Shown: piece by piece, positions 3,068 through 19,905 of the stretch
Position numbering within the stretch: the stretch's first letter is position 1
Layout of the letters: the number at the start of each line of letters is the position of its first letter
DNA from: a virus
IMG/VR virus record: IMGVR_UViG_3300008050_000300
Coordinates: 1-24,611 of that record
Reading direction: 5' to 3' (one strand)
Length of the DNA: 24,611 nt
The notes under the pieces: generated by a model
What the model saw: only the letters and a program-made list of their open reading frames with translations
The model's database searches: none
What the model was told of the DNA's origin: nothing
Program-made: the position numbers and the translations under genes

Positions 3068-3126
3068 GGCGACGACCGACGACTGCAAGTCGCGGCGATC
3101 CGACCTAACGTCAGGCAGAGGTTGTC

Positions 3127-4758
3127 GTGTCGAACCGGATCCCCATCGGTCAGGCGCACCTGTCCATCGAGGAGCTTGGCAAGCCCGATCTCCGCGAAGG
3201 TCCGCTGGCGACGTGGAACACGCGTTGCCGCATCCCGTTCCACTTCGACTGCTCCGCGCCGTCCGTCCTCTCCGATGAGGAGAAGACCGAGCGGGCGAAG
3301 AAGAAGAAGAAATACATGGACGCGGAGGACGGAGACGAAGTCGTCTTGTCCGACGACAAGGTCATGGTCGAAGGCTACGCGTCCTCGTCTTCCGTCGACT
3401 GGTACGGGACGGAGATGGGTCGCGAGGCCCTGGACATGATGGCCGACCAGTTCCGCGACGGCGTCCCCATGCTCCCCCGGCATCCATCCCTGATGGGCGG
3501 CGGCGAGTGGGATGACGTGATGGGGCGAACCATCGCCGGCATCGTCGAGGACGGCCCGGTCGAGGAAGCCCACCCGGACGCGGATGACCATCTGCGTCTC
3601 CGCATCGTCGCCGAACTCGACACCTCCCGTGAGAAGGTTCCGCAGCTTCTCTCGCGCCTCCGAGAAGGGGAGCCGATCGGCTGGTCGATCGGTGGCTGGT
3701 TCACGCGCCTTCGCGTCCAGTACAACGAGGACACCGACGAAGTCGAGCGCATCATCGTCCTCGGCGTCGACCTCGACCACCACGCCTTCACCCGACGTCC
3801 CGCGAACCCCGACGCCTGGATCACCGAGATCCGGTCCGCTGTCGTCCGCGCGATCGAGACGCGGTCCCCGACCCCGATCGTCGAGGAGACGCCGGATCTG
3901 GACGAGCCTGCCCCCGAGGCTCGCGCCGAAGACCCCGCGCCGGGGTACCGTCCGGCCGACCCGCAGCCGGCCCGGCGGTGTGGTTCCTGCACCCACCACA
4001 TGGCCGGCGTCGACGGTTCGCAGCCGCAGACCATGTGCGAGCAGTACTCCTTCCAAGACGACCCCGACTACGTCTGCGACTCTTGGAGCGCTTCCCAGCG
4101 ATCCGAGGGGGACGACGATCGTCTTGACACCCCGGCTGCAACGGGTCAGGATGGGCTCACGGAAGTCGATGCCTCGGAAGGCGCGTCCGGTGAAGCCCGC
4201 AACGACTCGGAGCCCGAGTCCCCCGAGCCCACAGACCCCCCCGAGGAGCGTGACATGTCCGACCAGGACACCCAGACCACGCTGGACCCCCGCGTCGACA
4301 AGCTCGCGGAGTCGATGGAGATGCTGTCCACCAGCGTCGCCTCCATCGCTTCCGCCGTCGCCGTGCTGACGGAGCGTGCCGCCGCGCCGCCCGCCGAGGC
4401 CCAGCCGACCCCCGACAACTCCGAGCTGGAAGCAAAGGTCGAGGCGCTCACGCAGCGCGCGGCCGTTGCCGAGAAGCGCCTGCTGGCGATGGCCGAGGAG
4501 CCCAACCGTATCGGCCAACTGGTCCGTGGCGGCGCTCCGGTCTTCGACGGACAGAGCCTGATCGACCATCAGGTCAGCCGGGCCAAGGCCGAGTGGGGCG
4601 AAGGCTCCCCGACGGCCACGCTCATCGAGCGTCACAAGGATCGCATGCTCCTCAAGGCGGGCGACAAGCTCCCCCAGGCGAGCGAGATCTCCGAGCACCT
4701 CCGGTCCGTGCTGCGCGCGGCCTTCTCGGAGGGTCACACCCCCGAGACCTGGCACTAG
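3127..4758 (+). CDS. Prohead protease fused to Cys4 module and scaffold
   Basis: This 543-residue protein starts at GTG 3127 behind AGAGG. Residues about 60-250 look like a capsid maturation protease of the S78/XkdF type. His119 (MLPRHPSL) and Ser187 (GWSIGGWF) are the likely catalytic pair, and LGVDLDHHAFTRRPANPDAW marks the domain end. Such proteases trim scaffold and capsid inside the prohead. Residues about 285-325 form a separate module with four Cys (CGSC, then MCEQY and VCDSW), likely to bind zinc or an iron-sulfur cluster. An acidic linker follows, then a C-terminal coiled-coil region (about 377-543) that should act as scaffold. A strong ribosome-binding site inside the gene suggests the scaffold is also made alone. 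It lies directly upstream of the capsid gene. Terminase and portal, which usually precede it, are not in the window. Confidence 0.85.
   Translation: MSNRIPIGQAHLSIEELGKPDLREGPLATWNTRCRIPFHFDCSAPSVLSDEEKTERAKKKKKYMDAEDGDEVVLSDDKVMVEGYASSSSVDWYGTEMGREALDMMADQFRDGVPMLPRHPSLMGGGEWDDVMGRTIAGIVEDGPVEEAHPDADDHLRLRIVAELDTSREKVPQLLSRLREGEPIGWSIGGWFTRLRVQYNEDTDEVERIIVLGVDLDHHAFTRRPANPDAWITEIRSAVVRAIETRSPTPIVEETPDLDEPAPEARAEDPAPGYRPADPQPARRCGSCTHHMAGVDGSQPQTMCEQYSFQDDPDYVCDSWSASQRSEGDDDRLDTPAATGQDGLTEVDASEGASGEARNDSEPESPEPTDPPEERDMSDQDTQTTLDPRVDKLAESMEMLSTSVASIASAVAVLTERAAAPPAEAQPTPDNSELEAKVEALTQRAAVAEKRLLAMAEEPNRIGQLVRGGAPVFDGQSLIDHQVSRAKAEWGEGSPTATLIERHKDRMLLKAGDKLPQASEISEHLRSVLRAAFSEGHTPETWH
4255..4758 (+). 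CDS. Nested in-frame scaffold protein from internal start
   Basis: ATG 4255 is in frame with the protease gene (codon 377) and has GAGGAG six bases upstream, a better translation signal than that of the full-length start. The resulting product would be 167 residues and begins MSDQDTQTTLDPRVDKL. It contains a predicted coiled coil (about 12-85, interrupted by an Ala/Pro-rich hinge) and an alpha-helical C-terminus likely to contact capsid protein. The arrangement matches the known lambda C/Nu3 nested protease-scaffold genes, where free scaffold is needed in excess over protease. The internal start is inferred from sequence only. Confidence 0.6.
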   Translation: MSDQDTQTTLDPRVDKLAESMEMLSTSVASIASAVAVLTERAAAPPAEAQPTPDNSELEAKVEALTQRAAVAEKRLLAMAEEPNRIGQLVRGGAPVFDGQSLIDHQVSRAKAEWGEGSPTATLIERHKDRMLLKAGDKLPQASEISEHLRSVLRAAFSEGHTPETWH

Positions 4759-4767
4759 GAGGCCATC

Positions 4768-5754
4768 ATGTCCCAGTTCGGATGGCTCAACGAAGACGTC
4801 AACAAGCGCATCGCCGCCCAGCGTGCGCTGTCGGATTCGTCCACCGCCCTGATCCAGAACTTCCTCAACACGACGGTGCAGCACCTCGTCCTCCGCGAAC
4901 TCGGCATCCACTCGGTGCTGCGCTCGCGTCCGGGTCGCGGTTCGCAGGCGCAGATCGTGCGCCGCACGGCGAAGACCGGCACGAACCGTCTGGAGTGGGT
5001 GGGTGACACCGACTCCCCGACGGAGGCGACCGGCTCCTACGCCCAGACGAACTTCAACTACCGGACCGGTATCGCGAAGGGGCGGGTGACCCGCTTCCTG
5101 CGCGCGGCCGGTGCCGCCTACGGTGACGCGTGGGCGATGGAGTTGGAGGGCGCTGCGGGCGACTACGCCGAGGGCCTGGAAACCGGCTGCTCCGTGGGTG
5201 ACAGCGGCGCTTCCGGCGACGCCGAGAGCATCGACGGCCTCATCACGCAGATCAACGGCGTGTCGGGTCAGGTCATCGCGCAGACGACCGCCGCCGCTGG
5301 CGACGACGTCACGGTGGCCGCTCTCGACGAGACGATCGACGCGGTCAAGGGTTCGGCCAACAAGTCGGACATGGTCATCTTCGGCTCCCAGGCGGGCCTC
5401 CGGAAGGTGAACGCGGCGCTGCAGTCCCAGCAGCAGTTCGTGAACACCACGGAGATCGCGGCCGGCTTCCGGGTGAAGACCTACGACGGCATCCCGCTCG
5501 TCCCGTCCACCGAGATCCCCGACGACCTGACGTGGGCCACGTCCACGATCCAGGCGCTCTCGGGCGGCTCCACCACCGCGCTGATCGTGGTCAACCTCCG
5601 CTACTACTGGCTGGAGTACCTGACCCCGACGACCGTGATGCCGCTCGCGCGCACCACGTCGCAGTACGAGGAGTTCGAACTCTACACCGACGTTGCCCTG
5701 GTGCAGGGCAACACCCTCGGTGGCGCGATCCTCGGTGGCGTCAGCCCCTCGTAG
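4768..5754 (+). CDS. Major capsid protein (HK97-type)
   Basis: This 328-residue protein follows the scaffold by nine bases and has AGGAGG in front of ATG 4768. Its position directly after protease and scaffold, its length, and its pattern fit an HK97-fold capsid subunit. The pattern includes a helical N-terminus, a Gly/Thr-rich middle, a segment like a spine helix and P-domain (SDMVIFGSQAGLRKVNAALQ), then YDGIPLVPSTEIPDD and a C-terminal strand region with YEEFELYTDVALVQGN. No separate N-terminal delta domain is obvious, consistent with the scaffold being a distinct polypeptide. It is followed by a strong hairpin terminator, which may help set its level above downstream genes. Confidence 0.88.
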   Translation: MSQFGWLNEDVNKRIAAQRALSDSSTALIQNFLNTTVQHLVLRELGIHSVLRSRPGRGSQAQIVRRTAKTGTNRLEWVGDTDSPTEATGSYAQTNFNYRTGIAKGRVTRFLRAAGAAYGDAWAMELEGAAGDYAEGLETGCSVGDSGASGDAESIDGLITQINGVSGQVIAQTTAAAGDDVTVAALDETIDAVKGSANKSDMVIFGSQAGLRKVNAALQSQQQFVNTTEIAAGFRVKTYDGIPLVPSTEIPDDLTWATSTIQALSGGSTTALIVVNLRYYWLEYLTPTTVMPLARTTSQYEEFELYTDVALVQGNTLGGAILGGVSPS

Positions 5755-6325: not shown

Positions 6326-6895
6326 ATGCCCGCCTACTTCACCTCGCGGGTTCGCGTGAAGCGGCTCTTGGGCATCCCGGCAGGGATCACCCGTCACGAC
6401 ACCTACATCGACGATCTCCTCGATGTCGTGGATGTCGAGATGGCGGGGATGATGGGGATCCCCGATGGGTCGATCACGCAGTCGACCTACAACGAGTCCT
6501 TCGACATCACGGACTCGACGACGAACAAGCTCATGCTGAGGCACTGGCCCGTCGCGTCGGTCGCCGCCGTCACCAACGACGGGTCGGCAGTCGCTGCCTC
6601 CGACCGGTACCTCAAGGACCGCATCGGGATGATCGGCTTGACGGACGAGAACTCGTTCTTTACGCGCGGGAATCAGAAGGTGTCGGTGACGTACACCGCC
6701 GGCTTCGACCCGGCGAACGTGCCGGCAGATCTCGCCCACGCGGCATCCGTTCTCGCCGCTGCACACTTCAACTCGTCCCGCCACGCCGGCTTGTCGGAAG
6801 AACGGACCGGCGGCTACGCCTACTTCCGACGCGAAGGACTCCCCGCCGAGGTGAAACGAGTCGTTGGTCGATGGTCGCGACTCTTCGTGAGGTAG
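6326..6895 (+). CDS. Head-tail connector / adaptor protein
   Basis: This 189-residue protein begins directly after the stop codon of the previous gene. Its pattern fits the gp6/gp15-like adaptor family that forms a ring under the portal. It has an N-terminal helical part (RVKRLLGIPAGITRHDTYID, with an Asp-rich helix DDLLDVVDVEMAGMM) and a central beta part with TYTAGFDPANVPADL, a phrase very common in these adaptors. The final segment is helical (LAHAASVLAAAHFNSSR). There is no separate Shine-Dalgarno sequence, so translation is probably coupled. The sugar module begins three bases after its stop. Confidence 0.8.
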   Translation: MPAYFTSRVRVKRLLGIPAGITRHDTYIDDLLDVVDVEMAGMMGIPDGSITQSTYNESFDITDSTTNKLMLRHWPVASVAAVTNDGSAVAASDRYLKDRIGMIGLTDENSFFTRGNQKVSVTYTAGFDPANVPADLAHAASVLAAAHFNSSRHAGLSEERTGGYAYFRREGLPAEVKRVVGRWSRLFVR

Positions 6896-6898
6896 TTC

Positions 6899-7993
6899 AT
6901 GCCCTGGTTGATGGAATACCCCTGGCTCCCGTCCCACGGGCGGCGCTTGAAGATCAACACCCCCCTGGAGACGGTCCGGCCGATTCGGGAAGGCCGGGCT
7001 TGGCGGGCCGTCGTCGCGCGATCGAACACGAAGGTTGTGCTGGAGCGGCAGGGGTGGTCGGTCGTCGAGTGGATCAAGAAGGAGGTCACGGCTTCCGTCC
7101 CGGTCATGGCCCCGGAAGGGGTCTTCCCTCCCGAATGGGCAAAGGCGGTCTTCGACTCGGCCGGTGAGCCAGAGCCGATGGACCTCCACAACGCGCTGAA
7201 GGTCACCCGGAACCCGCTCCCCGATCTGAACCTCGCCGTCTTACGGCGCGGCATCGCTGGCACCGAACAAGCTCGCATCGCCGTCGTGATGGTCGTCTCG
7301 TCGTGGGAGGACACGGAGATCGAGGCGGTCGAGATGGCGTTGGACGCCTGCTCCAGACTCGGCGCGGGCGCGCACGTCGTTCTTGTGCAGAACAACCCGG
7401 AGTTCCACGCGGCCACGAAGGCATGGAAGCCGCTTGGCAAGCATCGCGCCCGGTTCCGTCGGGCCTACTCCGAGAACAAGGGCTTCGCTGCCGCGTGCAA
7501 CCTCGGCGCGAAGAAGGCTCGGGACGAGATCGACTGGCTCCTGTTCACGCAGTCGGACTGCACGTGGGGGGCGCTCCAAGTGATCGAGGCGGTCGAGTTG
7601 TCGACCGCACTGTGGGGCGTGGAAGGCGAGTACCCGATTGTCGGCCCTTCGGGCGGCACCGTCGATCCTTCTTGCCCGTGGACGTTGACCGAGGTCGGCC
7701 GAAACATCGGTGAAGTCGAAAACGAGGTGAAGCCGGTCGATTTCGTCGCCGGGTACTGGTTCCTCGTTCGGGCCGACTACTTCGACATCACGAACATGGA
7801 TGACGGCTTCCCCCTCTTCTACGAGGACCCCGACTTCTGCCTTCGGATGGCGTTCGTCCATGGCGTGCGGTCGATCGTGTGGCCGTCGATGAAAGTCAGC
7901 CACGAGCGCGGGAGCACGATGGCCCGTCTCGGCGTGAAGAAGAGTGCGATTCGCGACCTCTCGGTGCGACGCTTCGCGGCAAGGTGGCGATGA
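6899..7993 (+). CDS. GT2-type glycosyltransferase with extra N-terminal domain
   Basis: This 364-residue protein starts at ATG 6899, eight bases after GAGG. Residues about 125-345 match a GT-A fold family 2 transferase of the rhamnosyltransferase-like kind: IAVVMVVSSWEDT as the first strand, NKGFAAACNLGAKKA at 193, and FTQSDCTW at 216-223 in the place of the DXD metal motif. VAGYWFLVRADYF and FYEDPDFCLRM (Glu309-Asp310) follow, with SHERGST at the end. The metal motif is QSD rather than DXD, still common in this group. The first 120 residues are not part of the fold: a small domain (REGRAWRAVVARS, VLERQGWSVVEW) and a linker, which might bind the acceptor or the virion. Its placement right after the connector suggests transfer of sugar to virion proteins. 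Donor and acceptor are unknown. Confidence 0.82.
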   Translation: MPWLMEYPWLPSHGRRLKINTPLETVRPIREGRAWRAVVARSNTKVVLERQGWSVVEWIKKEVTASVPVMAPEGVFPPEWAKAVFDSAGEPEPMDLHNALKVTRNPLPDLNLAVLRRGIAGTEQARIAVVMVVSSWEDTEIEAVEMALDACSRLGAGAHVVLVQNNPEFHAATKAWKPLGKHRARFRRAYSENKGFAAACNLGAKKARDEIDWLLFTQSDCTWGALQVIEAVELSTALWGVEGEYPIVGPSGGTVDPSCPWTLTEVGRNIGEVENEVKPVDFVAGYWFLVRADYFDITNMDDGFPLFYEDPDFCLRMAFVHGVRSIVWPSMKVSHERGSTMARLGVKKSAIRDLSVRRFAARWR

Positions 7994-8946: not shown

Positions 8947-9692
8947 AGCACCCGAGCGGGATCGCGTGGACGTCGACGAAGTCGGAACCCACTCCGAAGT
9001 GGGACTGGCCCGGCTACCTCGCGCACGAAGCGATCCCCGAAGAGGAAGCCGAGGCGATCGCGAGCATTCACGAAGTCATCGACCTCACCGGGCTCGTCGT
9101 TCTCGACCTTGGGTGCGGACGCGGCGCGTGTCTGAACGCAGCGAAGGACTACGGCGTCCGCAAGGTGATCGGGGTGGACCAGTCACCCTACGCTCTCGAT
9201 GCCGCGAAGCGGCTTCTGGACCGAAGCGATCTGCCCTACGTGCTGTGTGAGGACGAAGCGACCAAGGTCGGGCTCCCCGATGCGTGCGCGGACATCGTCT
9301 GGTCCCACGGCGTCGTCGAGCATTTCAAGAAGTCCGAGTTGGAGCCGTACTTCGCCGAGGCGATTCGCCTTGCCGGACGCTACGTCGCCTTCTCCGCGCC
9401 CAACCCGGACTCCGGGGTCTACCGCGAGTTCCGGCAGATGCGTCTCCAAGAAGGGACTTGGAAGTGGGGCTACGAGGAGCCGCTGTCTTCCTACGCAACC
9501 TACCTTCGGAAGGCCGGCTGCTCCGTCATCATCGACGCGCCGATCTGCAAGGGCGCGCACTACGGCTACTTCAAGCAGCTTCCGGAGGAGCGTCAGCGCC
9601 ACTGGCGCAGCCGGATCGTTGCCGGCGATGAGCCGGGCATCTACACGCTGGTCGTCGCTGTCGTTCCGGACTCGTTCGGGGGCGAGGAGTAG
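8934..9692 (+). CDS. SAM-dependent methyltransferase, probable sugar O-methyltransferase
   Basis: This 252-residue class I methyltransferase overlaps the dehydratase gene by 13 bases. ATG 8934 is preferred because GAGG lies seven bases upstream; GTG 8943 in the same frame would give a 4-base overlap and is an alternative. Motif I is LDLGCGRG at 57-64, the acidic SAM-ribose residue is Asp82 in VIGVDQSPYAL, and motif IV is ADIVWSHGVVEHF. The C-terminal half differs from UbiE-type enzymes and may bind the acceptor. Because it lies in one operon with a glycosyltransferase and a sugar dehydratase, O-methylation of the sugar made by this module is the most likely role. Its 3' end overlaps the convergent gene 9641-9844 by 52 bases. 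Confidence 0.8.
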   Translation: MGRVKHPSGIAWTSTKSEPTPKWDWPGYLAHEAIPEEEAEAIASIHEVIDLTGLVVLDLGCGRGACLNAAKDYGVRKVIGVDQSPYALDAAKRLLDRSDLPYVLCEDEATKVGLPDACADIVWSHGVVEHFKKSELEPYFAEAIRLAGRYVAFSAPNPDSGVYREFRQMRLQEGTWKWGYEEPLSSYATYLRKAGCSVIIDAPICKGAHYGYFKQLPEERQRHWRSRIVAGDEPGIYTLVVAVVPDSFGGEE

Positions 9693-9844
9693 TCGAACTC
9701 CCAGAATGGGAGGACCGTCACTTCGCCGGAATCGTGCTGCAGGACGAGGTCGTCGCCCTTGACCTCGATGACGGTGTAGACCGTCGCGGCGGGATCCATC
9801 CGGTCGACAACCGTGTCGCCGATCTTAAACAGGTTGGCAGCCAT
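9641..9844 (-). CDS. Small SH3-like protein, unknown function
   Basis: This 67-residue leftward gene starts at ATG 9844 with GGGAGG upstream and follows the Cys-rich gene by three bases. Residues about 5-52 read as a small beta-barrel: FKIGDTVVDRMDPAATVYTV, then IEVKGDDLVLQHDSGEV and TVLPFWEFD, a pattern like KOW or SH3 folds. The last 15 residues are disordered and overlap the convergent methyltransferase gene. Together with its partner it forms a leftward island inside rightward late genes, with its own promoter-like box. Function unknown. Confidence 0.65.
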   Translation of the reverse strand: MAANLFKIGDTVVDRMDPAATVYTVIEVKGDDLVLQHDSGEVTVLPFWEFDYSSPPNESGTTATTSV

Positions 9845-9847
9845 CAG

Positions 9848-10081
9848 CTACGGCCTCCCGATCTTCTCGCCGCCACACGGACAGCAGGGGTCAGAGCAGT
9901 TGCATTCGTCGCTTCGACTGCCGTAGACCGTTTGGGCGTAGAACGCTGTCTCAGCGTCAAGGTCTTCGTCGGTCGGGCAGATGCAGACGTACTCGTCGCA
10001 GCAGGGGCTTCGTCGGAACCAGTCCTGTTCAAGTTCCAAGCAGGGCGACATGCATTGACAGCGCGGGGCGCGGCAGTCCAT
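9848..10081 (-). CDS. Small Cys-rich protein, probable metal binder
   Basis: This 77-residue leftward gene contains 13 Cys residues in clusters (CRAPRCQCMSPC near the N-terminus, CCDEYVCIC in the middle, CNCSDPCCPCGG near the C-terminus). A folded protein with several zinc sites is likely. ATG 10081 is chosen because GAAGGAG lies seven bases upstream; a TTG seven codons earlier lacks such a signal. It is the first gene after the leftward box at 10106-10125. I do not recognise a family; it could be a host-takeover protein or a DNA- or RNA-binding zinc protein. Confidence 0.65.
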   Translation of the reverse strand: MDCRAPRCQCMSPCLELEQDWFRRSPCCDEYVCICPTDEDLDAETAFYAQTVYGSRSDECNCSDPCCPCGGEKIGRP

Positions 10082-10105
10082 CGGGTTCTCCTTCGTTTCC
10101 AACCG

Positions 10106-10196: not shown

Positions 10197-13058
10197 GTGA
10201 GTACAGCTACCGGAGCCGACTCTTCGGCTTTCCTTCACGACGACGAGAACGACTACCTCGTCATCATCCCCACCGTCGGCGTGCCCGAAGTTGTGGTCCC
10301 CTGCGTGGATCGGCTCTTTCGCGTCTCTGCCGGACTTCGGGTCAAGGTCGTCGTCGTCGTCAACCCCGACCCCGGCAACCCCCGGAGCGCGGAAGCGGTC
10401 GAGCGGCTGGAGAAGCTGACGCCCCCCGACGGCGCGTCCCTGATCGTCGAGACGTTCGACGCCCCCCTCGGCTTCGCCCGCGCCGTCAACGAGGGCTTCC
10501 GGGTCGCGTGTGAGGTGGGCGTTCCGGAGACGACCGTTGTCCTCAACGACGACGCGCTCGTCACGATGGGGTGGCTCCAGGGACTCCGAACCGCAATGAA
10601 GACGCAGTTCGTCCGGTTTTGGGGCGACATCCCCGACGAGCAGGGCCAGCGGATCGCTCGCCCCGTCTCCGGGTACGGCACGGTGGGCATCGTCGGTCCT
10701 ATGAGCAACAACGTCGCCGGGTCGCAGAAGGTGTCCGGGGCCGTCCCGAAGTCCGACAGCCAGTTGGACGCCTTCGCGTACTCGTTCCGAGCGAACCGGA
10801 TGGGCGGCGTTCTGACGACGAGCTTTGTGTCCGGCTTCTGCATGGCGTTCTCTCGTGATTGCGTCGAAGCGGTCGGCTGGCACATCCCCGTGCCGGGCGA
10901 GAGCCGGCTCTCTACGACCTTCCGGCCCACCCTCTTCGACGAGGTCTTCGGGGTGGGTGGCTACGAGGACAACGACATCTGCGCCCGCGCAGAGCGAGCC
11001 GGGTTCCGGTGCGCGATCGCGGAGGACGTCTACGTTCACCACCTCGGCCATCAGACCCTCGATCGTGCCTTCCCCGAGGCCCAGCGCGGCCTCGCCAACG
11101 TGCTCACGTACTACGAGAAGTGGGCCGACGAAGTGCGCGGAGACAAGCTCGTCGCCGTGTTCCGCGTGAAGTTGTCGACGGGGAACGACCTCCACCTCTG
11201 GCGCGCCGCGTTCCTCAAGGCGGCTACCGTCGTCGACGGCATCTGCGTTCTCTTGACCGGGAACCCGCTGGAGATGCAGCAATCTCCGGACTGGGAGATG
11301 TCGATGCGGACGTTCCCCCCGCACGACATGGAGATGCTGAAGAAGTGCAGCAACTCGACTCCGGAGGAGTGCGCGACGGCGGTCCGCAACTGGATCGCCC
11401 TCCAGGCACGAGGGCTTTGGCACGACGGACCAGACAACGCCCTCGGCGTGAAGGTCGGCGTGTGGGAAGGCGAGTTCAACGAGCGGGACGAGAGGAATGC
11501 TTCGGTCATCATGGCCGAGCAGATGGGAGCCGACTGGATCATCTCGATCGACCACGACGAGGTGATCGAGGACCGGATCACCCGCCGCCACTTCGACCGC
11601 CTGATGAACCACCCGGACCCGCTCGTCGACTCCTGGGACTTCTCGTGGCTCACCCATTGGGACGGGAAGCGGCTCATCCGGACCGATCCCCCGTGGGCCG
11701 ATGGTCGACGCTACCGGTTCTCGATGCGAGGCTTCCGGATGTGGCGGGTGAACAAGATCGCCCCCCGGAGGATCGCCCTCGGGAACGAGAAGGGCCTTCA
11801 TTGCGGCAACTGCCCCGACTACAGCATCGCGGCGAAGCGCGTGTCCGGGGTCCGGTTCCGACACTTCGGCTACGCCCGCCAGATCGATCGTGCCCGTAAG
11901 ACGGCGTGGTATCGGGCGATCGACCCTTCCGGGTCCGAGTCCCTCACGGGGTCGTCCAACTACGGGCACCACGAGCACGAGGAAGGGATGAGCTTGTCCC
12001 CGTACCGTTCGGACAACGGGATCGGGCTCACCATGCTGGTCTACGAGAAGGAGCACCTTTCGGACCTCGCCCGCCACCTCGACTTGATGTACGGGCTCGT
12101 CGACCGCATCGTCCTCGTCTGGACCGGCGAGGAGATGTTCGACGAGGAGAGCGAGTGGGCACGGCTCGGTGACCTCTTCGGTGCCGAGTGGATCCACCAG
12201 CCGCTCAACCTCGACTACGCGACGGCCCGGAACGCCGGGGTGAAGCGACTCCGCGAGTTCAACAACGAGGGGCTCTCGTGGGCGATCACGTTCGACCCCG
12301 ACGAGCAGTTCTCGGAGCCCTTCGGCGACATGGTCGCGATCCGTCGGATGGCGGAACGGACTGACTCATGGGGCTGGCTTTTCGAATTCGCCAACCACCG
12401 TGTCGACAGCGACGGGCAACTGGTCGCCACCCCGTCGTGGACCCCCCGGATGTTCTGGCTCGATCCTTGGAACATCATGGAGTACAACGGCCGCGTCCAC
12501 GAAGGCTTCGACGACTCGCTCGCGCAAGTTCACGACCGAGGCGAGCACCCTCAGCTTGGCTGGGCTCCCTTCCGGATGCACAACCGGGGAACGGCCGGCG
12601 ACGACGACAAGACCGAGGACAAGCTGGAGCGGTACACGACCCTTCTGCTGAAAGAGTTGGAGGACCGACCCGACCGGTCCGGCCCGTGGGTGTCTCTCGG
12701 AGTCCAGTTGCTCAACGACGGCGACGAGACGGGCGGGCTCCAATGCCTCAACAACGCCTGCCGGCTCGCAGTCCACGAGAACAGCTACCTCGCGTTCAAG
12801 GAGCTTGCGGTCTTCCACCTCCACATGGCGATGGGGCTGATGGCGGAAGCGCAGTCCCGCACGGCGCGGTCCCATCCCGAGCACCAGTCCCTCGGGACGA
12901 TCTTGGGGCTGCTGGAGGAGCACGCGCCGAAGCGGATCTTGTCGGGCTCTGCTCGGACGGGCTCTCCGGTCCAGCGGGTCAAGGAGATTCCTCAGTTGAC
13001 CGACGAACACATCGAGTCCGCACGGGCGCGTCGCCGTCGGGGTAAGATGCCGTCGTGA
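10197..13058 (+). CDS. Large glycosyltransferase with three tandem GT-A domains and TPR-like tail
   Basis: This is a 953-residue protein from GTG 10197, set two bases after GAGGTGC; the frame opens earlier, but those codons are the promoter. Domain 1 (about 15-290) is a GT2 transferase: LVIIPTVGVPEVVV, LGFARAVNEGF, VVLNDDAL at about 115-122 (DXD-like), GGYEDNDICARAERAG at about 255-270, and VYVHHLGHQTL. Domain 2 (about 315-575) looks like another GT-A unit with ADWIISIDHDEVIED near 451. Domain 3 (about 600-800) is of WaaE/SunS type: LTMLVYEKEHL, LDYATARNAGVKRL near 672 and WAITFDPDEQFS near 699. Residues about 828-930 look like TPR helices (GPWVSLGVQLLNDGDETGG), as often follow SunS-type transferases. 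Together they could add successive sugars to one acceptor. It overlaps the next tail gene by 4 bases (GTGA), placing it in the tail operon and pointing to a virion substrate. Domain 2 is the least certain. Confidence 0.8.
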   Translation: MSTATGADSSAFLHDDENDYLVIIPTVGVPEVVVPCVDRLFRVSAGLRVKVVVVVNPDPGNPRSAEAVERLEKLTPPDGASLIVETFDAPLGFARAVNEGFRVACEVGVPETTVVLNDDALVTMGWLQGLRTAMKTQFVRFWGDIPDEQGQRIARPVSGYGTVGIVGPMSNNVAGSQKVSGAVPKSDSQLDAFAYSFRANRMGGVLTTSFVSGFCMAFSRDCVEAVGWHIPVPGESRLSTTFRPTLFDEVFGVGGYEDNDICARAERAGFRCAIAEDVYVHHLGHQTLDRAFPEAQRGLANVLTYYEKWADEVRGDKLVAVFRVKLSTGNDLHLWRAAFLKAATVVDGICVLLTGNPLEMQQSPDWEMSMRTFPPHDMEMLKKCSNSTPEECATAVRNWIALQARGLWHDGPDNALGVKVGVWEGEFNERDERNASVIMAEQMGADWIISIDHDEVIEDRITRRHFDRLMNHPDPLVDSWDFSWLTHWDGKRLIRTDPPWADGRRYRFSMRGFRMWRVNKIAPRRIALGNEKGLHCGNCPDYSIAAKRVSGVRFRHFGYARQIDRARKTAWYRAIDPSGSESLTGSSNYGHHEHEEGMSLSPYRSDNGIGLTMLVYEKEHLSDLARHLDLMYGLVDRIVLVWTGEEMFDEESEWARLGDLFGAEWIHQPLNLDYATARNAGVKRLREFNNEGLSWAITFDPDEQFSEPFGDMVAIRRMAERTDSWGWLFEFANHRVDSDGQLVATPSWTPRMFWLDPWNIMEYNGRVHEGFDDSLAQVHDRGEHPQLGWAPFRMHNRGTAGDDDKTEDKLERYTTLLLKELEDRPDRSGPWVSLGVQLLNDGDETGGLQCLNNACRLAVHENSYLAFKELAVFHLHMAMGLMAEAQSRTARSHPEHQSLGTILGLLEEHAPKRILSGSARTGSPVQRVKEIPQLTDEHIESARARRRRGKMPS

Positions 13059-13531
13059 TCCGCGTAGACGCCGCCAGCCTCCAGCGCGTAGTCGGGAACA
13101 TCGCCGACTTCCGCACCCGAAGGGGCCGCAAGTTGCTCCAGGCTGCTGCTGACGCTGCCGGACAGGTGGCCTACGCGGAGGTCGCGGCGAACATCCGGCT
13201 GACCGACTACTCGCTCTCCGACCTCCGGAACATGGATCACCCCTACGCTCGACGACACGGGCGGGTCCGCATCCATTCGTCCCGGCCTTACGTCGTCCAC
13301 ACCCGTACCGGACGGCTTGCCGCTTCGTTGCGTGGGCAGTCGACGACTTCCGGACGGTGGCCCGGCTTCCGGGTCGGGTTCGATACCTCGATCGCGCCCC
13401 ACGCCGAAGCCGTCGTGCGCGGCACCTTCCGGATGCTGCCGCGTGACGTGATCGCTGGAACGCTCGGTGACAAGCGGGTCAGGAAGATGATGATGGAGGC
13501 CGCTGCCGACGCGGCACGCGCGGAGTTGTAG
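13055..13531 (+). CDS. HK97 gp10-like head-tail joining / tail completion protein
   Basis: This 158-residue protein starts at GTG 13055, overlapping the glycosyltransferase stop. The pattern fits the HK97 gp10-like family: an N-terminal amphipathic helix (RVDAASLQRVVGNIADFRTR), a long helix of Ala residues, then a beta segment after YVVHTRTGRLAASLRG and a conserved APHAEAVVRGTFRMLPRDV near the C-terminus. In these proteins the APYA-VV-GT and RP phrases are typical. It sits just before the tail terminator gene, as in many siphoviruses, and should help seal or join the neck. Confidence 0.75.
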   Translation: MIRVDAASLQRVVGNIADFRTRRGRKLLQAAADAAGQVAYAEVAANIRLTDYSLSDLRNMDHPYARRHGRVRIHSSRPYVVHTRTGRLAASLRGQSTTSGRWPGFRVGFDTSIAPHAEAVVRGTFRMLPRDVIAGTLGDKRVRKMMMEAAADAARAEL

Positions 13532-14762: not shown

Positions 14763-15317
14763 ATGCCTCTCAACATCGGGACCGTCACCAACAACAACAT
14801 CTCCTTCGGACCGGGCGTCTTGTTCATGGGTCAGACGGGGGACACCCCTACGACCGAGATCGGCGCGATCGGCGAGGAAGGTGCGACCCTGGAGATCCAG
14901 TCGGAGTCGCGCGAGATCACGCAGGGCAACCCCAAGCTCGTGATCTACCGCTTCGTCCAGGCCCAGGGCTACCGGTTTTCGACCTCGGGCATCGAGTGGA
15001 ACTTCGACAACTTCGCCCGGATGCTCGGCTCGGGCAACACGACGTCGGGCGGTGGGCAGGACACCCTCTCGTGGGGCGGTGAGCCGCTGATCACGAGCGT
15101 CGCGCTGCATCTCCGTCACCGGATGGCCGTCCCCGGCCAGACGATGAACGTCTACATGTGGCACGCCGACGGCGAAGGACCGTTCTCGGTGCCGTTCTCC
15201 GACGACGAGCACAAGTTCGAATACTCCTGGCTCGGACGCCGGGTGACGACGAACTGGGCTTCGGCCGCCCTCGGCACCGACGAGCAGCTCCTCAAGTTCG
15301 TGAGGCAGACGACGTAG
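14763..15317 (+). CDS. Major tail protein (tail tube)
   Basis: This 184-residue protein starts at ATG 14763 behind GGAGG. Length, beta-rich composition and position between the tail terminator and the tail assembly chaperone fit a siphovirus tube protein. The N-terminal part (LNIGTVTNNNISFGPGVLFM), the segment TTEIGAIGEEGATLEIQSES, and the closing FEYSWLGRRVTTNWASAALG are typical of tubes that stack as hexamers. Having its own promoter and leader agrees with the need for many copies per virion. Confidence 0.85.
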   Translation: MPLNIGTVTNNNISFGPGVLFMGQTGDTPTTEIGAIGEEGATLEIQSESREITQGNPKLVIYRFVQAQGYRFSTSGIEWNFDNFARMLGSGNTTSGGGQDTLSWGGEPLITSVALHLRHRMAVPGQTMNVYMWHADGEGPFSVPFSDDEHKFEYSWLGRRVTTNWASAALGTDEQLLKFVRQTT

Positions 15318-16332: not shown

Positions 16333-19300
16333 GTGGCTACTGCGAACACCGTCGGTCAACTCTTCATCGACGTCCTCATCCGGGCGGACCCGAACGCGTG
16401 GTCGTCGGAAGAGAGGAAGCTCGCGGGCCGGCTGCGTGGCCTCGGTTCGTCGGTCCAGAAGTTCTCGGCCACCATCGAGCGTCAGGTCACCCGCGCATTC
16501 AAGGTCGCGACCGCTGCCGTAGCCGCCTTCGGGGTCGCTACGACCAAGGTCGGTGCCGATTTTGAGCAGGAAATCGCTCGCATCGGTGCCATCACGGGCG
16601 CGATGCCCGAAGACATTGCCCGCATCGAGAAGCAGGCGCGGTTGCTCGGAAAGACGACCTTGTTCACCGCTACCCAGGCGGCGCAGGGAATGACGGAGCT
16701 GGCGAAGGCCGGCTTGACCGTCGAGCAGTCGATTCGCGTGTCCACCGACGCCATGCTCCTCGCCGGTTCGACGGGCGCATCGATGGCACAGGCTACCGGC
16801 TTGATCGTCTCGACGATGAAGCAGTTTGGCATGGAGGCCAACGAGGCGACCCGGATCTCCGACGTCTTCTCCAAGGCGATGCGGACGTCCATGCTCGACG
16901 TCCACTCTCTCCGCGAGGCGATGAAGTTCGCCGGTACCGCCGGCCGTGCGTTCAACTTGACCTTCGAAGAGACGACCGGCGTTGTCGCCATGCTCCGGAA
17001 CCTCGGTCTGGAAGGCTCCCTTGCCGGTACGAACCTCCGGATGGCGTTGACCTTCGCGGCGAAGGGATCGAACAACGCGCGTGTCGCGCTGGAGAAGTAC
17101 GGGCTGACGCTCGACGACATCAACCCGGAAACCAACACCTTCGTCGAGATCTTGGAGAAGGTCGGCGGGAGCGCGATCAAGGCGAAGGACGCCATGGCGA
17201 TCTTCGGTGCTCGGTCCGGCGCGAACATCGCCGCGATCTCCCGACAGGTCGCCGAAGGGGAGTTCGACCTCCGTGGCTACATCGAGTTGCTGGAAGACAG
17301 CGCGGGCGAGACGCAGAACGTCTACGACAAGATGCTCGACTCCCTCCAGTCGCAGTCCCGCATCACGATCTCCGCGCTGCAGGACTTGATGATCGAGGTG
17401 TTCAACCTCTACGCGGAGCCGCTGCGCGACATCGTCGAGAGGATGCCGAGGATCCTCAACATGATCGTCGAGGAGGTCAGCCGTCGAGCCGGGTTCATTC
17501 GGGACGAGGCGGCGAACCTTTCCGAAGAGATCTTGTCGTGGATCGACAAGAACGAGCGCGCGATCGTCCAGGGGGCGGCAGACGCGGTCCAGGCAGTGAT
17601 GTCGTTCGTCAGGGCGGTCAAGGACGCGATGCCGATCATCGTCGCGTTCGGCAAGGCTGTGCTGCTCGCGTTCGCCGTGAGCAAGGTCGTCCAGTTCGGC
17701 GCGGCTTTGAACGCGCTTCTGCCAGCCATTCGGTCGTTCGCCGTCGCGGCAGTAGCCGCTCTCGGACCCGTCAGCATCGCGATCGTCGCGCTCTCGGCAG
17801 CTATCGCAGCCGCGATGGCCGCGATGAAGAAGTGGAACGCGATGCAGATCGCCGAGTCCGAGAAGGTCATGGACTCGGCCGAGGTCCGCGTCCGCCGGCT
17901 CACCGACGAGGTGCGCGCACTCCAAGAGGAAGAGAAGGAGCTTGCATCTCGGCAAGCCGAGATCAACCAAGACTTGGCCGAGGGGAATCTCCACTGGAAC
18001 AAGTCGATGGTCCTCAAGACCGAGCTTCGGCAGGTCACGGAGGATCTGAACAAGGCGAACTCGGACCGGATCGCGAAGAACAAGACCCTTTACGCGCAGT
18101 TGATGACCCTCCACAACGCGGAGGAAGCGAAGAAGAAGGCCGCAGAAGAAGCCGCCGCCGTCGATAAGGAGCGCAACGCCGAGTACGCGAAGCACGAGGA
18201 GCAGCTCCGGAAGATCCGCGAAGCGATGGAGCTTCTGAAGGAGGAGATGACCGAAGAGGGCGGGGACGGAGAGCCGGCCGAGTTCGTCGCCAACGTCGCG
18301 AAGGAGATGGAAGGGCTCGGGCGCGTCATCGATACGACGAGCGAGAAGTGGCACTCCTACTCAGCCGACGTCGCGAAGATGGCAGCGGCCGTCGCGAACA
18401 ACTGGGAGGTCACGACGGCGTCGTGGACCGAGATCGCTCGCGGCAAGATCTCGACCTTCTTCAACAAGTGGCGCGACGAGATCGACGCCGTGAAGGAGAA
18501 GGCCGGGGACATCGCGGAAGCGATCGGCAACGTCTTCTCCAAGACGGCGACCGCCGTTGTCGGAACGTTCAAGGCAGTTCAGAGCATCGTATCGAAGTCG
18601 ATCTCGATGGCCGCTGGGGCCGCTGGGGCGCTCGACCAGATTCTCGGCTTCGCTGGACTCAGCATCTCCGACATCGCGTCTACGGCGAGCGCTGGAGCAC
18701 AGACCGACGACGATACGGGAGAGACGTCCTCTACGTCTTCGATCATGACCGACATGATGCGAGGCGCGGTCGAGATGGTCCGCACCTTCGTGCGGGAGAT
18801 TCCGAGCGTCGTGCAGGCGTTCGTCGACGAGTTCCCCTCCCTGGTGAACGCTCTCGCGACGTCGATCGGCCCGATCATCACCGCCATCACGAACGCGTTG
18901 CCGGACATCGTCCTTGCGTTGATCAGCGCGCTACCGACGGTCGTGAACGCGCTCGCTCGGGAGCTTCCGGGCCTGCTGACCAAGATCGTGAAGCTGCTCC
19001 CCAAGCTGGTCATCGCGATCGTCGAGCAGCTTCCGGTTCTGGTGCAAGCGATCGTCGACGCCCTGCCGGGTTTGATCACGAAGCTCCTCGGCGCTCTCCC
19101 CGAAGTGATCAAGGTCCTCGCGGACTCGATCGCGGACATCATCTCGGCGATCATCAAGGCGCTCCCCGATATCGTCATCGCGATTGTCGAAGCGATCCCC
19201 GACATCGTCGTCGCCATCATCGACGCGATCCCGGTGATCGTCGAAGCGCTGATCGTCGCCATCGTCGTCGACCTGATCCCCCGGCTTCCGGAGATGGCCA

Positions 19301-19905
19301 ACGCCGTCGTGAAGGCGCTGGTCATGTCGATCGTCGGCGCTACCGGGTCCTTCGTTAGCACGCTGTGGGGCTACATCGTCACCGGATGGACGGCCTTTCT
19401 CGGCACCGCCGTCGGTGAGTGGTGGACCCAGCTTGCTACCGGCATCAAGGACTTCGTCACCGCCTTGTGGGACCGCATCGTCGATGGCCTCAAGGGCTTC
19501 GTCGACAAGTTGGTCGACTGGCTGAAGGACGCCCTGTTTGGACGCGACAAGGACAAGGGTGGCGGGTCAGCGATGGCGGGGATCCCCTACATTCCGAAGC
19601 TCACCCGGATGACCCTCCACCCCGGAGAGGCGGTGATTCCGGCCGAAAGGAACCCCGCAAACCCGGCCGCTTCGGCCGCTCCGGGCGCGGGGTCGGCCTC
19701 TGTCGGGGGCGGCGGAAGCGGCGCAGCCTCGGGGATGGCTGCCGTGATTCCGGTCGCCGTCATGGTCGAAGGCCGGACAGTCGATCAGGCCCTCGTGGTC
19801 GCCGGGCGGCGTGGGAACGCGCCGGGCATCAAGTCTCAGATCCAGCGGAAGTCCGGCGCAAAGGTCGGCTTGTCCCGTGGTCGGTACCAGAACAGCAGCG
19901 GGTAG
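16333..19905 (+). CDS. Tail tape measure protein
   Basis: This 1190-residue protein starts at GTG 16333, eight bases after AGGAG. Residues about 75-300 match the tape measure family PF10145/TIGR01760: ADFEQEIARIGAITGAMPED, LFTATQAAQGMTELAKAG, then VYDKMLDSLQSQSRITISAL. A hydrophobic stretch (about 432-500) may insert in the host membrane during DNA entry. A long coiled coil follows (about 502-640). Residues 818-971 are fourteen uninterrupted 11-residue repeats. The C-terminus holds LHPGEAVIPAE, a phrase common near the ends of tape measures, and a Gly/Ala-rich tail. Tape length sets tail length; at roughly 1.5 angstrom per residue this predicts a tail near 170-180 nm, assuming no processing. 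No lysozyme or peptidase domain is seen. Confidence 0.93.
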   Translation: MATANTVGQLFIDVLIRADPNAWSSEERKLAGRLRGLGSSVQKFSATIERQVTRAFKVATAAVAAFGVATTKVGADFEQEIARIGAITGAMPEDIARIEKQARLLGKTTLFTATQAAQGMTELAKAGLTVEQSIRVSTDAMLLAGSTGASMAQATGLIVSTMKQFGMEANEATRISDVFSKAMRTSMLDVHSLREAMKFAGTAGRAFNLTFEETTGVVAMLRNLGLEGSLAGTNLRMALTFAAKGSNNARVALEKYGLTLDDINPETNTFVEILEKVGGSAIKAKDAMAIFGARSGANIAAISRQVAEGEFDLRGYIELLEDSAGETQNVYDKMLDSLQSQSRITISALQDLMIEVFNLYAEPLRDIVERMPRILNMIVEEVSRRAGFIRDEAANLSEEILSWIDKNERAIVQGAADAVQAVMSFVRAVKDAMPIIVAFGKAVLLAFAVSKVVQFGAALNALLPAIRSFAVAAVAALGPVSIAIVALSAAIAAAMAAMKKWNAMQIAESEKVMDSAEVRVRRLTDEVRALQEEEKELASRQAEINQDLAEGNLHWNKSMVLKTELRQVTEDLNKANSDRIAKNKTLYAQLMTLHNAEEAKKKAAEEAAAVDKERNAEYAKHEEQLRKIREAMELLKEEMTEEGGDGEPAEFVANVAKEMEGLGRVIDTTSEKWHSYSADVAKMAAAVANNWEVTTASWTEIARGKISTFFNKWRDEIDAVKEKAGDIAEAIGNVFSKTATAVVGTFKAVQSIVSKSISMAAGAAGALDQILGFAGLSISDIASTASAGAQTDDDTGETSSTSSIMTDMMRGAVEMVRTFVREIPSVVQAFVDEFPSLVNALATSIGPIITAITNALPDIVLALISALPTVVNALARELPGLLTKIVKLLPKLVIAIVEQLPVLVQAIVDALPGLITKLLGALPEVIKVLADSIADIISAIIKALPDIVIAIVEAIPDIVVAIIDAIPVIVEALIVAIVVDLIPRLPEMANAVVKALVMSIVGATGSFVSTLWGYIVTGWTAFLGTAVGEWWTQLATGIKDFVTALWDRIVDGLKGFVDKLVDWLKDALFGRDKDKGGGSAMAGIPYIPKLTRMTLHPGEAVIPAERNPANPAASAAPGAGSASVGGGGSGAASGMAAVIPVAVMVEGRTVDQALVVAGRRGNAPGIKSQIQRKSGAKVGLSRGRYQNSSG
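18784..19245 (+). repeat. Fourteen tandem 33-base (11-residue) repeats inside the tape measure gene
   Basis: From TFVREIPSVVQ to AIIDAIPVIVE the protein can be written as 14 consecutive 11-residue units with no insertion, consensus A-[IL]-V-x-A-[LI]-P-x-[IL]-V-x. Pro is at position 7 in 12 of 14 units; units 3 and 11 carry Gly or Ala there. A degenerate fifteenth unit follows. The period of 11 is that of right-handed or straight hendecad coiled coils. Confidence 0.9.

Follow-up and report, generated by a model that had tools for sequence, protein, structure and literature searches.

What is the product of a long reading frame at the head-tail junction of an uncultured phage, and on what would it act? 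The question is raised by a 24.6-kb IMG/VR virus record, the whole of which was analysed and is called the window here. The open reading frame (ORF) runs from a GTG start to the stop that ends at 13058, and its GC contents at the three codon positions (0.65/0.45/0.87) give a strong coding signal. A first-pass annotation had read the encoded protein as three GT-A glycosyltransferase (GT) domains, the last of them SunS-like, followed by a TPR-like tail, a layout that is borne out by the predicted model as well as by profile and Foldseek matches (Table 1). As set out below, the probable role of this enzyme is to assemble a short glycan on one of the proteins of the phage particle.

Table 1. Genes of the window and domains of the 953-aa protein (aa, residue numbers in that protein)
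Feature	Position	Strand	Evidence and remarks
Capsid-like protein	4768-5754		
Head-tail adaptor, upstream flank of the cassette	6326..6895	+	phrog_442 2.3e-18; conserved in 16 loci
Separate GT2-like protein, 364 aa, fourth GT domain of the cassette	6899..7993	+	weak PF00535
RmlB-like nucleotide-sugar 4,6-dehydratase, 318 aa	7990..8946	+	TIGR01181 3.8e-65; phrog_540; motifs STDEVYG and YSAGK
SAM-dependent methyltransferase, 252 aa	8934..9692	+	PF08241 1.4e-14
Three-domain GT-A glycosyltransferase with TPR-like tail, 953 aa	10197..13058	+	ORF, AlphaFold2, Foldseek
Domain 1 (D1), GT2 type, aa about 14-310	10236..11126	+	Pfam PF13641 4e-14, PF00535 1e-7; motifs NDD 117-119, VSGFC 211-215, GGYEDNDI 254-261, HHLGHQTLD 281-289
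Domain 2 (D2), SunS-like GT-A, aa about 312-600	11130..11996	+	AlphaFold2 of the domain alone, Foldseek, hhalign; motifs ERDERNASV 429-437, DHDE 452-455, GLHCGN 533-538
Domain 3 (D3), SunS/GmaR-like GT-A, aa about 601-800	11997..12596	+	PDB profile matches; motifs ARNAG 677-681, DPDE 700-703, RVHE 766-769
Helical TPR-like tail, aa about 803-909	12603..12923	+	model helices; TPR matches with the family profile and members
Small neck/tail-completion-like protein, downstream flank of the GT	13055..13531	+	role inferred from position
Ig-type protein, 184 aa, presumed major tail protein	14763-15317		
Tape measure	16333-19905		

The AlphaFold2 model of the full-length protein, built on a 22-row family alignment, has a pLDDT of 86.6 and a pTM of 0.86, and Foldseek matches it in the PDB to GT-A enzymes, the best being K4 chondroitin polymerase (K4CP), SunS/ThuS and GalNAc-T2. 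D2, the one domain folded in isolation (pLDDT 88.7, pTM 0.89), is likewise a GT-A fold with SunS, AvpGT, WrtF, TarP and SpsA among its matches; TarS is also found among the GT-A relatives, and the Foldseek TM-scores are modest (about 0.4-0.55). Neither D2 nor D3 of the window protein matches anything significant in Pfam, and the whole protein matches none of the PHROGs families at E 0.01. A family profile compared with the PDB places GT2 enzymes over D1, TPR proteins over the tail and, weakly (E about 0.02-0.03), SunS and GmaR over D3, so that D3 and the tail present, with this weak sequence support, a SunS-like GT-A core followed by a helical/TPR domain. Together, the isolated fold of D2, the Pfam GT2 matches of D1, the profile matches of D3 and the full model identify all three domains, with limits taken from the model and the alignment, as GT-A folds. 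Each domain contains a DxD-like acidic metal motif (NDD, DHDE and DPDE) at the positions given by the first-pass annotation, and these motifs are kept in most relatives.

The three domains are not equally related to each other. D2 and D3 are homologous by hhalign (E 3.3e-6, the best of shuffled, reversed and unrelated controls reaching 0.02), whereas D1 has no recognisable relation to D2 and a marginal one to D3. Judged by these profile comparisons, D2 and D3 represent an ancient tandem duplication, and D1 is an ordinary GT2 domain. The SunS/ThuS S-glycosyltransferases share with D3 the GT-A core and downstream helical part, and match D3 by profile and both D2 and the full model by Foldseek, but have a single GT domain and a bacteriocin peptide as acceptor and are 12-16% identical. 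The flagellin O-GlcNAc transferase GmaR of Listeria similarly combines a GT domain with subsequent TPRs, modifies the subunit of a protein filament and matches D3 by profile (E 0.027), but is a cellular protein with one GT domain as well as linker and antirepressor domains; its TPR domain has been proposed to recognise flagellin, which it glycosylates (PMC9638930). By analogy, D3 and the TPR-like tail of the window protein would select a protein acceptor, for which a virion protein of the head-tail or tail region is the likeliest candidate.

Queried directly, the window protein matched nothing among viral contigs, cellular genomes and phage records, and relatives surfaced only through a degenerate DNA pattern for D3, which matched 25 viral contigs, 18 of them encoding relatives. 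Fourteen loci of this first set can be aligned to the window protein at 38-43% identity across about 930-990 columns; because they align over nearly the full length, and because the D3 motifs are constant while D1 and D2 vary, a chance reading of the ORF is excluded. With 26 loci from an alignment-based scan, the family is represented on some 25 fragmentary contigs of uncultured viruses, and its members range in GC from 0.44 to 0.72. No family member was found in two scans of cellular genomes, nor by tblastn in 50,697 phage records, of which 339 were matched by a dehydratase query used as a control, indicating that the tool works. The capsid and presumed major tail proteins are also without match among the phage records, which points to an uncultured lineage. 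Matches of the tape measure to these records were weak and widespread, and host assignment from the three proteins failed.

A motif survey of the 22-row alignment, which is less certain in its degenerate rows, reveals that the three active sites are unequally conserved. In D3, ARNAG, DPDE and RVHE persist in every one of the 22 rows, with one ARSAG, one DADE and two RIHE as conservative variants, whereas the D1 motifs are intact in 16, degenerate in four (L051, L054, L056 and L057) and absent from two (L053 and L055). D2 is degenerate in L050 as well as in all six rows lacking a good D1, although L054 retains DHDE without the flanking motifs. The rows that lost D1 fall into two well-supported groups on a tree of D3 plus tail. 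This graded series, in which D3 is always kept while some lineages have let D1 and D2 degenerate or have lost them, is a new finding. Such a pattern might be expected if D3 were the sole catalytic domain and D1 and D2 served as scaffold or regulatory parts, a reading that we consider improbable, since D1 and D2 motifs are both intact in the window and 14 other rows (one with DTDE for DHDE), including NDD and E/DDND of D1, and since an intact D1 is accompanied by a sugar-nucleotide gene. The series also bears on a K4CP-type polymerase that would alternate two or three sugars into a polymer, a model considered because K4CP, itself a two-GT-A polymerase, is the top Foldseek match by E-value. That rank may merely reflect the two GT-A domains per chain, and the persistence of members with only D3 intact would not be allowed by a polymerase needing alternate sites; the model was set aside as highly improbable.

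The sugar-nucleotide gene follows the state of D1. A full-length SDR (RmlB-type) gene is present on the contig of 15/15 testable members with an intact D1 and of 0/5 in which D1 is dead or gone, a co-loss that amounts to two evolutionary events; in the latter it is absent by whole-contig search (L054, L056 and L057) or truncated without catalytic motifs (L053 and L055), and L048 and L051 were left out of the count because their contigs end just 5' of the GT. The gene lies 5' of the GT in the window, L035, L036, L004, L040, L042, L049, L043, L058, L044, L045, L046 and L047, is partly present in L039, where the contig ends, and is found about 11 kb 5' of the GT, with STDEVYG and YSAGK, in L050. 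An association with D2 was considered because the 22-kb locus of L050, where D1 is intact and D2 degenerate, seemed to be devoid of an SDR, and was dropped in favour of D1 because the whole-contig search found one; L050 alone separates D1 from D2. This coupling supports a model in which D3 acts as primer with a host sugar and D1 adds a phage-modified 6-deoxysugar.

The SDRs differ in type: the canonical STDEVYG occurs in the window, L036, L043, L058 and L050, whereas YxxxK is the only motif seen in several others. The window dehydratase has both STDEVYG and YxxxK but scores 220 bits against TIGR01181, below the curated equivalog cut-off of 365, which leaves its product uncertain. No RmlA-type nucleotidyltransferase was found on any family contig, and the host would therefore supply the starting nucleotide sugar. 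On the contig of L050 (also L059), RmlC-like (1852-2328), RmlD-like (2346-2783) and RmlB-like (3095-4117) genes lie between the GT and an ORF that looks, on reading by eye, like a head-tail adaptor; together they make up most of a dTDP-rhamnose pathway inside a phage structural block.

The gene order of the window runs from the capsid-like protein and adaptor through the GT2-like protein, dehydratase, methyltransferase and three-domain GT to small neck/tail genes, the Ig-type protein and the tape measure. The three-domain gene sits at the head-tail junction between adaptor and tail-completion genes rather than deep in a tail operon, a small correction to the first-pass annotation. The ATG of the dehydratase at 7990 overlaps the stop of the preceding gene, whose GT2-like product has a homologue at the equivalent place on the contig of L050. 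The methyltransferase, which may methylate the sugar, has no homologue among the relatives' contigs searched. Two small ORFs, one of them cysteine-rich, lie on the minus strand just 5' of the GT (9641-10102) in an otherwise plus-strand block. Among relatives, the same small neck/tail genes are found 3' of the GT, the neck/tail-completion-like protein having a homologue immediately 3' in 21 of them, and capsid and adaptor genes lie 5' in nearly all loci that extend that far. Because this head-tail context is conserved, virion glycosylation is the most likely role.

Alternatively, the target could be a host surface molecule, such as a wall polysaccharide, teichoic acid or surface glycoprotein, whose modification blocks superinfection or alters the receptor. 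Receptor modification by phage genes is established, and the teichoic acid enzymes TarP and TarS are among the GT-A relatives of the window protein. We nevertheless regard a host target as unlikely, given the conserved place of the GT inside the late structural block, the resemblance of D3 and the tail to protein glycosyltransferases, and a sequence in which no long hydrophobic membrane segment was seen when read by eye.

No single candidate acceptor stands out among the window proteins. In two relatives, collagen-like and baseplate/fibre-like proteins are encoded between adaptor and GT (L035:5113-6909 and L044:7846-9888) and are possible acceptors there. A beta-rich protein family of about 200 aa occurs in 11 relatives, mostly shortly 5' of the GT (L036:9218-9922, L040:5338-5997, L044:6774-7403 and eight others); since a profile search found it to be absent from the window, it was ruled out as a required partner of the GT. 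Separately, reading L002:2136-3197 by eye suggests that a neck-like protein there is split by an intein-like segment (CVFGSHN ... LLVSN|S), and L002:3631-5035, from another virus, comprises a GT2 gene and then an MDTDM-motif gene beside a tape-measure-like gene.

The first-pass annotation was aware of no described three-domain enzyme in the tail operon, a remark that has to be qualified. As outlined in PMC7826918, A111/114R of chlorovirus PBCV-1 carries three GT domains of about 300 aa on one chain and builds part of a virion-protein glycan, and large GT-A phage proteins are present in UniProt; three GT domains on one viral chain are hence not new. A111/114R differs in belonging to a eukaryotic giant virus and in its GalT, XylT and FucT domains, and a TPR tail is not mentioned in that description (PMC7826918), the comparison resting on architecture. 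The window protein and its family stand apart from it in being phage-borne, in the duplication that links D2 and D3, in a TPR-like tail with its likeness to protein glycosyltransferases, and in their series of pared-down members. The best viral structural match, BFVD A0A6J5LLV3 of an uncultured Caudovirales phage (1.4e-25 over 879 columns), is annotated as a GT-A type domain protein but is longer (1443 aa) and 14% identical. In mycobacteriophages, the GTs are reportedly separate genes, unlike the three-domain chain. Phage GTs have been linked to glycosylated virions in mycobacteriophages (Freeman et al. 2023, Cell Host Microbe; cited in PMC13313380). According to accounts that cite this study (PMC10568470 and PMC13313380), virion glycans influence how phages are recognised by the immune system.

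We favour, with reasonable confidence, a phage protein glycosyltransferase with three predicted active sites on one chain that work stepwise from D3 through D2 to D1. The first sugar, drawn from a nucleotide sugar that the host makes, would be attached by D3; D2, the diverged duplicate of D3, would lengthen the chain, and D1 would extend it further. The RmlB-like dehydratase would make a dTDP-6-deoxyhexose-type donor, with D1 as its most likely user, and the neighbouring methyltransferase may cap the chain. The first-pass proposal of stepwise oligosaccharide building on one acceptor is plausible and gains indirect support from the kept-D3/lost-D1 series with its SDR co-loss, while the activity, its donors and acceptor and the order in which sugars are added are what we infer from sequence, predicted folds, conservation, gene order and co-occurrence. 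More tentatively, and with a good deal less confidence, we suggest an assembly line in which D1 adds a phage-made 6-deoxysugar as the third sugar and which different lineages have trimmed back, so that living relatives would bear the same virion glycan with three, two or one sugar, as could be foretold from the state of the domains and the sugar-nucleotide gene nearby. If so, domain state would predict glycan length and the neighbouring gene the outer sugar, which could be tested on one expressed enzyme. An uncultured phage lineage would then possess a nearly self-contained module that uses the three active sites of a single chain to decorate the particle with a short, defined glycan, and of which simpler forms make up a natural series.
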